From positions 372,001 to 436,000 of the forward strand of contig NZ_JABEPQ010000002.1 in NCBI RefSeq assembly GCF_013041615.1: DNA of 64,000 nt, in the 5' to 3' direction. The notes under the pieces were generated by a model. It searched no databases and was not told where the DNA came from. It was given only the letters and a program-made list of their open reading frames with translations. The position numbers and the translations under genes were made by a program. Shown here in pieces: positions 6,887 to 30,153 of the stretch (the stretch's first letter is position 1; each line of letters opens with the position of its first letter). Source of the DNA: Knoellia koreensis (lineage in GTDB: Bacteria; Actinomycetota; Actinomycetes; Actinomycetales; Dermatophilaceae).

Positions 6887-6919
6887 CGTATGCCGCCCGC
6901 TCACCGCGGGCGGCATACG
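6887..6919. terminator. Bidirectional hairpin built from two facing 8-mer motif copies
   Basis: Perfect 14-bp arms, 6887-6900 and 6906-6919, with a 5-base loop. Each arm contains the genome-wide motif GTATGCCG/CGGCATAC. It lies between the convergent DUF3105 and methyltransferase genes and has no T-run, as is common for actinobacterial terminators. Confidence 0.7.
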
Positions 6920-12130: not shown

Positions 12131-12182
12131 GAGTCTTCGGAACAATTCCTCCCTTGGAGCGTAGGCATTCTTCCGAAGACTC
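12131..12182. repeat. 52-bp palindromic element, copy 1
   Basis: Perfect 12-bp arms GAGTCTTCGGAA (12131-12142) and TTCCGAAGACTC (12171-12182) enclose a 28-base loop. The right arm overlaps the stop codon (12181-12183) of the DUF559-type gene. A second copy with the same arm and loop lengths and a partly conserved loop lies at 13241-13292, on the other side of that gene. The two are direct repeats 1110 bp apart. Confidence 0.85.
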
Positions 12183-13176
12183 AGGGGTCGGGGGTTCGGA
12201 TCATGCAGCCGGGACGGCGGCAGGCCCTCGGCGTGCCGGTCCAGCCCCGTGAGCGCAGGATCGCGGCGACGTCGTATGCCGTCTGGCAGGGCGTGATCGC
12301 CACGTCGGCGAAGAAGACGCGCGTGGTGACCCGGTCCTGGCCCAGCTGGCTCCGGTCGCGACGGCCGTCCCGGACCCGGTCCCGCCAGGTCTCGTGCCCG
12401 AGGCGACCATCCACCTCGAGGACCAACCGGTACCTGTCGTAGCGGTTGTCGTGGCGTTGGTTGCCGTCCGGCCCGACGGCCCGCGCCTGGCGAACTGCCC
12501 GCGGCAGTCCATGGGCCCGCTCGACATCGCGGATGTAGAGGACCTCGGCGCCGCTCTCGGCGCCCTCCTCCACGTCGGCGAGGGCGACCTTGAGCAGCTT
12601 GGAGTAGCGGTGGCCGCCGCGGTCGACGATCTCCTGGCGGAGCTGTCGTCCCGTGACCATCTCCTTCTGCACCGCCCGGGCGACAAGGGAGAGGGCGTCG
12701 AGCGGGGTTCCGTGGGTCGCCACGTCGAGGACCGACGCGACCACGGTGGTCCGGAAGGGGTCGCCGGTGGGGTCGATCACGGAGGCGAACCGCGACACCC
12801 GCCGCACGCGGACACCGTCGACCGGGGCCACGCGCCGCGTCTCCGGCACGACCACCTCGACCACCTGCGGCTCGGACCGCTCGAGCCCCCACAGGTGCAG
12901 GGCGCTGCGCCCGGCCAGCGCTGCGTGGATCGCGGGCACGCCCACTCCCGAGTAGAGGAGCGCGGCCCGCGCCCGGCTGATCCAGTCGGCCCGACCCGGC
13001 TTGGTCAGGTAGACCCCTTCGTGGACCAGCGACCACCGACCGGTCTCCAGCCGCCAGCCGATCACCCGGTCGGTCAGGCCGGCGGCAAGGCACTGGGCGC
13101 GCGTCACCAGGTCGGCCTGCCGGTCGGCATACCGCCGCAGCATGGCCCAGTCGACGTCGGGACGCGCACCACCCAT
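12181..13176 (-). CDS. AbiEi-like N-terminal domain fused to DUF559 (Vsr-like) nuclease domain
   Basis: 331 residues. The N-terminal ~75 residues (LVTRAQCLAAGLTDRVIGWRL ... LVHEGVYLT) match the winged-helix domain seen in AbiEi-type antitoxins. The middle (HAALAGRSALHLWGL, VEVVVPETRRV) continues that family. The C-terminal ~110 residues match DUF559, a PD-(D/E)xK fold related to Vsr: E-x-LYIRDVERAHGLP, YDRYRLVLEVDG, then LGHETWRDRVRDGRRDRSQLG. The acidic residues D (YDRY) and E (LEVDG) that would bind metal are present. No AbiEii-type toxin partner is adjacent. Such solitary proteins are frequent in actinobacteria and lack a known role. The gene is bracketed by two 52-bp palindromes, as a mobile cassette might be. 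Confidence 0.82.
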   Translation of the reverse strand: MGGARPDVDWAMLRRYADRQADLVTRAQCLAAGLTDRVIGWRLETGRWSLVHEGVYLTKPGRADWISRARAALLYSGVGVPAIHAALAGRSALHLWGLERSEPQVVEVVVPETRRVAPVDGVRVRRVSRFASVIDPTGDPFRTTVVASVLDVATHGTPLDALSLVARAVQKEMVTGRQLRQEIVDRGGHRYSKLLKVALADVEEGAESGAEVLYIRDVERAHGLPRAVRQARAVGPDGNQRHDNRYDRYRLVLEVDGRLGHETWRDRVRDGRRDRSQLGQDRVTTRVFFADVAITPCQTAYDVAAILRSRGWTGTPRACRRPGCMIRTPDP

Positions 13177-13240
13177 CTGCCCACTGTGCCGAACCCGCGG
13201 ACCGGCGCTGTGGCGTCATCCACAGGCCCCCCGGATCCGC

Positions 13241-13292
13241 GAGTCTTCGGAAGAATTCCGACGCTGGAACGTAGGTATGTTTCCGAAGACTC
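13241..13292. repeat. 52-bp palindromic element, copy 2
   Basis: Arms 13241-13252 and 13281-13292 are identical to copy 1 and extend by two more paired bases on each side. The 28-base loop keeps AATTCC, TGGA and CGTAGG from copy 1. It lies nine bases from the stop codon of the next minus-strand gene. Confidence 0.85.
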
Positions 13293-13300
13293 GCAGGCGT

Positions 13301-14074
13301 CTAGGGGGACGGGGCGGCTGCGATGACGGCCCGCGCCAGGGCGACGGCCTCGCGCGCATCGTCCTGGGTGAACTGCTGCCGGTCACCACGGCGGTGCGCG
13401 AGGACGCGCAGCGCGAGGCGAGCGTGCTCGGGGAAGCGTTCCGCGGCATACCTCGCCGCCTCGCTCTTGGAGATGAGCCGGTCGGTCGCGAGCAGCGCGT
13501 GCAGGCGCGGCACCCCGAGCGTCGGCCAGGTGACGACGAAGTCGAGCTCCCCCTCGCCGACCCGACCGGCGGCCAGGTGCGACTCCGCGTCCACCACCCA
13601 CGGCAGCCAGTACGTGCGCAGGTTGTCGGCCGTCCACGCGCGCAGCGCCCAGTGGTCGTCGCGCACGACGAGGTGCGGCACGGCGCGCACCGGCACGGCA
13701 TACCGGGCCAGCTCGGCCCACAGCACCGGACTCACCGGTGCGCCCCCGTCACCGGCGTCGAAGTGCCCGTGCATGACATAAGGAGCCACCATGCCGTCGA
13801 CCGCCGGCGCCGCCAGCTGCCGCACGGTGAGATAGAAGACGTCGTATGCCGGGCCGTCGCCGGCCGCGTCGACCTCACCGTGGATGCCGCGCAGCACCTC
13901 GGGGTCGGGCACCGGCGTGCCGAGGACGACGACGGCGTCGATGTCGCTGTCCGGCGGGTGGAAGTCGTTCAGCCCCACCGAGCCGGTGAGGTAGAGGCCG
14001 AGCGCACGCCCGGGCAGGCGCTCATCGAGGAGGGCCAGGTGGCGGGCGGTGATCGCCGCGACGATCGGGTGCAC
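13301..14074 (-). CDS. AadA-like nucleotidyltransferase (aminoglycoside adenylyltransferase fold)
   Basis: About 257 residues from the GTG at 14074; a TTG at 14086 is an alternative start. The N-terminal part has the polymerase-beta type nucleotidyltransferase motif LYLTGSVGLNDFHPPDSDIDAVVVL, that is, G-S then D-x-D. A helical C-terminal domain follows, as in AadA/ANT(9) enzymes (DUF4111 region; TADNLRTYWLPWV, SKSEAARYAAERFP). Family members adenylylate streptomycin or spectinomycin, but chromosomal actinobacterial relatives are diverse and most are untested. No resistance neighbours or mobile-element genes are present. A resistance role should not be assumed. Confidence 0.75.
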   Translation of the reverse strand: MHPIVAAITARHLALLDERLPGRALGLYLTGSVGLNDFHPPDSDIDAVVVLGTPVPDPEVLRGIHGEVDAAGDGPAYDVFYLTVRQLAAPAVDGMVAPYVMHGHFDAGDGGAPVSPVLWAELARYAVPVRAVPHLVVRDDHWALRAWTADNLRTYWLPWVVDAESHLAAGRVGEGELDFVVTWPTLGVPRLHALLATDRLISKSEAARYAAERFPEHARLALRVLAHRRGDRQQFTQDDAREAVALARAVIAAAPSP

Positions 14075-14139
14075 GGGACCAGCCAACCACGCAGTGGCCC
14101 CAATTTCCTCCGGTCGAGGCGGTGTGGAACGGTGGGCAC

Positions 14140-30125: not shown

Positions 30126-30153
30126 GGTATGCCGCGTGCCCACGCGGCATACC
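30126..30153. terminator. Second hairpin built from two facing 8-mer motif copies
   Basis: Perfect 13-bp arms at 30126-30138 and 30141-30153 with a 2-base centre; in practice the innermost pairs would open to form the loop. Each arm carries GTATGCCG/CGGCATAC. It lies between convergent genes. Confidence 0.65.

Follow-up and report, generated by a model that had tools for sequence, protein, structure and literature searches.

RAYT genes are flanked by palindromes, copies of which are dispersed at extragenic sites, and the RAYTs themselves are distinctive single-copy genes whose phylogeny largely agrees with that of the species (PMC3116915 and PMC3733652). REPINs are composed of two inverted conserved ends and a spacer (PMC3116915). 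The CGTC-tagged REPs are dispersed palindromes that apparently lack a dedicated transposase, and the accessible part of the source reports no association of these elements with a nuclease (PMC3733652). The AbiEi protein binds two 23-bp inverted repeats that lie 3 bp apart and span 49 bp in total in an S. agalactiae promoter, and AbiEi and Rv2827c alike occupy 23-bp inverted repeats within the promoters of their own genes (PMC7319586).

Here, we describe a gene and its flanking palindromes in Knoellia koreensis that can be compared with these systems. The likeness to REP/RAYT lies in an enzyme gene flanked by palindromes, in dispersed copies that are mainly extragenic (13 of the 17 in this genome are intergenic), and in enzymes that occur as distinctive single copies with a largely species-congruent phylogeny. 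As in REPINs, two inverted ends are constant, although this constancy comes partly from how the copies were collected. Whereas RAYTs have the HUH motif and the catalytic tyrosine of IS200/IS605-type transposases, the protein studied here is an AbiEi-PD-(D/E)XK fusion. RAYT-associated REPs have a GTAG foot, which is missing here, the unit being a single palindrome of about 50 bp; the tag of the CGTC-tagged REPs is likewise a different sequence. The system works like a REPtron but is not one, as the HUH enzyme and the GTAG foot are both absent. The resemblance to AbiE and Rv2827c resides in the N-terminal ∼200 residues, which have the two-domain fold of these proteins (known members of which bind the 23-bp repeats mentioned above), and the 49-bp span of the AbiEi binding site is close to the size of the palindromes. 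However, the protein has a fused nuclease domain, palindromes are found downstream of the gene and elsewhere in the genome as well, and no conserved toxin gene adjoins it at this locus; the AbiEi fold is present, yet the locus is not an AbiE toxin-antitoxin pair. We consider it probable that this is a REP/RAYT-like system built on an unrelated nuclease that binds, and probably cuts, a palindrome of its own; the binding, the cutting, and the part played in spread all rest on inference.

A lone nuclease gene between two copies of a palindrome

The window (the whole 64,000-nt stretch of K. koreensis DNA that was analyzed) contains a minus-strand gene at positions 12181 to 13176, with its ATG at 13174 to 13176 and its TGA at 12181 to 12183. 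Its 331-amino-acid product is predicted from the open reading frame (ORF), Pfam, PADLOC, and an AlphaFold2 model to combine an AbiEi-like DNA-binding module with a Vsr/homing-endonuclease-like nuclease. It is the single ORF enclosed by two 52-nt palindromes. Copy 1 (12131 to 12182) is located at the 3′ end of the gene and shares two bases with its stop codon, and copy 2 (13241 to 13292) lies upstream, 64 nt from the start codon, and follows the stop codon of the next gene at a distance of 8 nt. The two elements have the same 12-bp arms (GAGTCTTCGGAA/TTCCGAAGACTC) around a 28-nt center, are 1110 bp apart, and are 79% identical across 66 nt. The initial annotation of this DNA had described the pair in just these terms, including the arms, the equal centers, the spacing, and the overlap with the stop codon, and all of these particulars were reproduced to the base. 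The exact-arm pattern was found at 11 places in the 4.28-Mb genome (G000, 15 contigs) and at none when the pattern was read backwards, so the palindrome is not a chance occurrence. Allowing up to three mismatches gave 17 copies genome-wide; a covariance model returned the same 17, with the next match at an E value of 0.69. The Rfam matches near the locus were all below gathering scores and were taken as chance.

The gene is found in the order GT4-GT2-nuclease-IMP in seven congeners, where the nuclease has diverged fast (55 to 60% identity, versus 80 to 93% for GT2 and 82 to 86% for IMP). In two further congeners, G001 and G009, the gene and the palindromes are both missing from the locus; the direction of the change and the cut site remain unresolved. 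Vertical conservation without empty sites had been named beforehand as an outcome that would refute a link between nuclease and palindromes, and on this point the result is mixed: the gene occupies the same place in seven species, yet two lack it together with its palindromes. A recent insertion of a mobile cassette at the window locus is not supported, as the gene is syntenic in the seven congeners.

A nucleotidyltransferase-like gene (13301 to 14086, minus strand; subthreshold matches to NTP_transf_2 and AadA_C) sits between the nuclease gene and IMP. It was absent from the locus in 7/7 syntenic congeners and was found there only in this genome. Therefore, the nuclease gene has no conserved partner on that side, and we rejected a toxin-antitoxin pair formed with this neighbor.

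An AbiEi-like module fused to a Vsr-like nuclease

The AlphaFold2 model, built from 49 natural sequences, has a mean pLDDT of 92.6. Residues 5 to 203 (12568 to 13164, minus strand) form a winged helix-turn-helix and a second domain and match the S. agalactiae AbiEi antitoxin (6y8q_A) with a Z score of 12.1 over 184 residues (root mean square deviation [rmsd], 4.6); Foldseek places the AbiEi match at an E value of 2.2e-6. The C-terminal domain, residues 207 to 312 (12241 to 12558, minus strand), is assigned to the PD-(D/E)XK/Vsr type from fold matches and invariant residues. Its matches to Vsr and to EDxHD homing endonucleases span Z scores of 8.4 to 11.6, with NGO0050 (3hrl) at 11.6, the catalytic domain of I-Bth0305I, which we take to be an EDxHD homing endonuclease, at 11.5 (3r3p; 96 of 97 residues; rmsd, 2.4), and Vsr itself (1cw0) at 9.5. 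Unlike these enzymes, the nuclease described here carries an AbiEi module and has palindromes on both sides of its gene. Foldseek alone was weak on this part (3r3p at an E value of 0.17), and against viral models it returned DUF559 proteins at 6.2e-4. Eight residues of the domain (E211, H222, D243, E254, D256, H261, D270, and D274) are invariant in the 49 sequences. The suggestion of a PD-(D/E)xK, Vsr-like domain that had been made from the letters is thus backed by a confident structure model. A Vsr/EDxHD-type fold with conserved acidic residues is supported on the strength of that model, and catalytic activity is only inferred from it.

Pfam assigned AbiEi_1 to the window protein above the cutoff; among the 49 members, at E values of ≤0.01, AbiEi_4 was matched by 37 and DUF559 by 8. 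In the libraries searched, the family is labelled merely by domain, for example, AbiEi or DUF559. Among Pfam models, the window protein and 48 relatives matched AbiEi, DUF559, and DUF7119 and no Y1 transposase; these scans were not genome-wide. No match was obtained in PHROGs with the window protein, in NCBIfam with the 49 members, or in a plasmid search. A phage collection contained a relative with 47% identity (MT835975.1:8485-9459) in an unannotated 14-kb record labelled Bacteriophage sp.

The PADLOC AbiEi model matched all 49 aligned members, and some genomes contain many copies, as might be expected of a defense-type nuclease that attacks invading DNA and for which the flanking palindromes serve as control or self-recognition sites. 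We find this explanation very unlikely, because the nuclease has no conserved partner on the nucleotidyltransferase side and because defense would predict neither the dispersal of the palindromes nor the inversion of the gene that are described below.

Matched palindrome pairs recur around related genes

We scored the best local match between the upstream and downstream flanks of each gene, together with the palindromicity of both matched pieces. A locus passed with a match score of ≥18 and palindromicities of ≥8 and ≥11; these thresholds were fixed after the phylum-wide nuclease loci had been viewed and before their controls were. Within the genus, 23 of the 25 members found by protein search (the window gene included) passed, and all 25 had flank scores of ≥20, the two failures having scores of 21 and 34 and weaker palindromes. 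Two pairs of protein-search fragments were each merged into one gene for this count, and a profile search adds further members (8 in G000 and 3 in G001) that are partly outside the 25. None of 99 control ORFs, taken from loci of the Actinomycetota collection, passed. Across the Actinomycetota, 47 of 78 loci passed and 49 reached a score of 20, versus 0 of 177 neighboring ORFs for either measure; the 78 are the best 80 of 142 confirmed loci minus the truncated L155 and L182. The family was present in 88 of the 118 class genomes searched, with at least 19 members in one genome. For a class-wide count, 30 loci were at hand, of which the K. koreensis locus L086 was excluded; among the other 29, which are best hits from 29 of the 88 positive genomes, 16 passed and 19 reached a score of 20. 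The loci that failed (31/78 across the phylum and 13/29 across the class) include some at contig ends and some that are interrupted. Judged by eye, palindromes were present on both sides in 11/11 close relatives (the window gene included), with differing sequences, and in 9/19 more distant homologs (28 to 42% identity).

The initial annotation had proposed that a Vsr-like nuclease is associated with palindromes of its own, much as RAYTs are with REPs, and that palindromes should be sought around other DUF559/AbiEi genes. The matched-pair counts for genus, phylum, and class, set beside controls without a single pass, support this association well beyond the window locus. The alternative that it had offered, an integron-type cassette, gained no support in our analysis, which did not extend to attC sites or integrases.

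Several loci depart from the simple arrangement. L150 and L163, the two phylum-wide loci that have in-frame stops within the match, are also without a matched pair; these two cases hint that pairs decay with the gene. L217 (C9:232000-237200 of the K. koreensis genome) is a TGA-interrupted member with two tandem palindromes per side, and L117, from a Dermatophilaceae metagenome-assembled genome, has arrays of several related half-palindromes on both flanks of the nuclease gene. At L105 (G110:C23), the flanks match with a score of 169.5, far above the palindrome level, suggesting a long flanking duplication.

Each gene has a palindrome of its own

The K. koreensis genome has at least eight members of the family, recognized among 19 scored candidates, and the five that were fetched have five different matched pairs. 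The two palindromes of one locus had a median mutual score of 34.5 (37 loci). Between loci, the bin medians were 7.0 to 9.25 for nucleases less than 70% identical, and the median was 22 at ≥70% identity (6 pairs). Nuclease similarity and palindrome similarity were correlated (Mantel r = 0.33; 0 of 1,000 permutations as high). No exact-arm copy of the window palindrome was found in 57 other genomes searched.

This privacy also bears on the possibility that the palindromes are moved by a classical RAYT or another transposase encoded elsewhere in the genome, with the link to the nuclease being hitchhiking. In other bacteria, the movement of REPs is attributed to RAYTs (PMC3116915 and PMC3733652). 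In our data, the private palindrome follows the nuclease paralog and not the genome, and no GTAG foot was present at the 15 of 17 K. koreensis copies that were read, which end in GAGTC/GACTC, mostly with TGC..GC outside. We give such a transposase hardly any credence.

Dispersed copies and their placement

A palindrome with CATGATCAT ends was present in 41, 12, 29, 12, and 44 copies in five genomes of another family, whereas the reversed-pattern control gave 0. By inner sequence, those in G166 make up three subfamilies, of 26, 13, and 5 copies (counted manually), and two of these subfamilies correspond to the palindromes found on both sides of two G166 nuclease genes. Seven genomes of the genus have 4 to 13 copies each of the GTCTTTGA-type palindrome, counts that include nuclease-flanking copies and in which one G006 site is counted twice. 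All 15 dispersed copies in the K. koreensis genome matched the flank of that genome's own orthologous nuclease best. With nuclease-flanking copies excluded, the same was true of the GTCTTTGA-type copies of G010 (4/4), G004 (2/2), and, in part, G006 (6/10), and of none in G002 (0/10), G008 (0/5), and G005 (0/10, with two ties). Among the fetched paralogs of G002 and G005, the GTCTTTGA type is likewise absent. The palindromes of G002, G008, and G005 match none of the nuclease flanks examined in those genomes and may have outlived a nuclease that was lost or belong with one that was not found. G001 has six GTCTTTGA-type copies, no ortholog by protein search, and three more distant members by profile search.

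The initial annotation had foreseen a genome-wide search and had held that palindromes scattered widely without a link to nuclease genes would speak against its idea. Copies are indeed scattered, but they are also linked to nuclease genes, and that objection fails.

Tandem genes border 8 of the 17 copies in the K. koreensis genome and convergent genes border 5, with none between divergent genes; 2 are inside a called gene, and 2 were left unclassified. Twelve are within 33 nt of a stop codon. At 31 loci in other genomes, a few of which are nuclease flanks, 14 sites are convergent, 11 are tandem, 5 are inside genes, and 1 is divergent. The gene calls used for placement came from an ORF and GC3 heuristic. 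The sole divergent site (1 of 26 classified intergenic sites) is the upstream palindrome of a nuclease gene.

These positions matter for autoregulation, in which the protein would be an AbiEi-type repressor, the upstream palindrome its operator, and the downstream and dispersed copies either a small regulon or sites of secondary importance. The protein clearly has an AbiEi-like part, one palindrome does lie upstream of the start codon, and AbiEi and Rv2827c bind repeats in their own promoters, as noted above. But the second window copy is at the stop codon, and the dispersed copies come after genes, with 0 of 13 intergenic sites in the K. koreensis genome and only the one in other genomes being divergent. 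Autoregulation also leaves the conserved nuclease domain, the spread, and the in-place inversion unexplained. As a full account it seems unlikely to us; it may hold in addition to a role in mobility, with the upstream copy additionally acting as an operator.

Gain, inversion, and differences in location

Four dispersed sites were compared with congeners, and two of them could be aligned (C8:187004 and C8:71141 could not). At C8:60610, no such palindrome is present in the four relatives anchored on both sides, in which the gap is 39 to 43 nt shorter. At C8:202286, the K. koreensis palindrome is absent in the seven relatives anchored on both sides and also from the stretches read in G001 and G010, which are anchored on the left side only. 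Here, five relatives have a GGTATGCC-type hairpin (a variant in G006), the left arm of which persists beside the K. koreensis palindrome. In G007, the site holds a different palindrome that matches the flank of another G007 nuclease gene (C10:381413), so that, in two species, one intergenic space is occupied by two different nuclease-linked palindromes. At the aligned sites, no target duplication was resolvable. To judge from these two alignments, dispersed palindromes are gained.

Among 65 counted locus pairs with conserved flanks, 16 had the nuclease gene inverted relative to its neighbors; these represent at least five groups, with L131, L129, L146, L175, and L189 as the odd ones out, and in none of the 65 pairs did counted flank matches fall on mixed strands. 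As pairs that match in one piece through the gene were omitted (e.g., L125/L126 and L121/L134, both direct) and some pairs match on one side only, 16/65 should not be taken as a rate. In the four groups examined for collinearity (L131/L134 with L121/L131, L146/L159, L129/L133, and L175/L192), the flank matches end inside the palindromes or within 70 bp of them. L145 and L159 are 80% identical and have no detectable common flanking sequence, which indicates that cassettes differ in location too.

Hairpin or half-sites

The window copies are able to fold, at −22 to −27 kcal/mol (there was no shuffled control), and we asked how the two halves of the palindrome vary in the dispersed copies. Pairing at variable inner positions was 0.559 versus 0.556 after shuffling in the K. 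koreensis genome (17 copies), 0.446 versus 0.458 in G166 (26 copies), and 0.5 versus 0.418 in G005 (10 copies); a second G166 type gave 0.0 versus 0.483 (12 copies, one position). Inner positions of the two halves thus vary independently, and a hairpin maintained by compensatory change is not supported, since the inner stems pair no better than their shuffled counterparts. Little can be read from the constant arms, as copies were collected, and in G166 also grouped, by their arms. Compared with selection for a hairpin, a pair of duplex half-sites, each read by one protein monomer, would fit the independent inner variation better.

The same numbers weigh on a reading of the palindromes as insulating terminators, that is, hairpins around a lone gene that are kept alike by gene conversion of inverted copies and spread by unrelated recombination. 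Their frequent position just after stop codons, several of them between convergent genes, and the folding energies above are what one would expect of terminators. Against it stand the 0/177 and 0/99 other ORFs with such matched pairs, the inner stems that pair no better than shuffled ones, and a sequence that is private to each gene. We therefore think this reading quite unlikely.

Proposed mechanism and implications

Sequence comparison establishes a large actinobacterial family of predicted AbiEi-nucleases, many of which are boxed by private matched palindromes of ∼45 to 55 bp that are dispersed in the genomes searched. That gene-specific pairs are also scattered elsewhere suggests a new kind of small mobile DNA. 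In the mechanism that we propose, the palindrome would be the enzyme's own DNA site, with two inverted half-sites of ∼24 to 26 bp each read by one AbiEi-type module; half-site binding is inferred from the fold and from the published binding of AbiEi to inverted repeats. The fused Vsr-like domain would cut at or near the bound palindrome, and cutting followed by copying repair may establish palindromes at further positions, chiefly in intergenic DNA past stop codons. Cuts at both flanking palindromes would allow the cassette to be rejoined either way, leading to in-place inversion; this step is inferred as well, and the inversions could instead be ordinary homologous recombination between inverted repeats. 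Enzyme and palindrome would then change in step, so that each gene ends up with a distinct specificity. We lean, by a little, toward the wider view that these are mobile DNAs found throughout the Actinomycetota, in which each AbiEi-Vsr nuclease mobilizes a private palindrome of ∼50 bp and flips or moves its own cassette, convergent with REP/RAYT and built on a homing-endonuclease-type fold.

If the mobile-DNA reading is true, it gives a role to an orphan gene family that is present in most class genomes searched (the 88 of 118 mentioned above). The private palindrome is a ready-made candidate DNA target for each enzyme, which opens function to direct tests of binding and cutting. Should the nuclease indeed drive the spread of the palindromes, this would be a second, non-HUH route to REP-like elements, and the diverged enzyme-palindrome pairs would be a resource for studies of DNA recognition. 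We found no report of the nuclease-palindrome association in the open-access literature, searched without preprints and most subscription journals. Nor did titles and the starts of abstracts in the open-access literature on DUF559 mention repeats of this kind, and no open-access literature was found that joins AbiEi with DUF559 or RAYT/REPIN with Actinobacteria.

Apart from the palindromes, the window is rich in an 8-mer, GTATGCCG/CGGCATAC, which occurs 31 and 29 times in the two orientations (for example, at 30126 to 30153 and 6887 to 6919) versus ∼0.56 expected for each from dinucleotides. It is reminiscent of uptake-sequence or Chi-like words, the cause being unknown, and is also present as inverted-pair hairpins. 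The 8-mer is frequent in the sampled Intrasporangiaceae loci and absent or rare in those of Nocardioides, Planosporangium, and Microlunatus.
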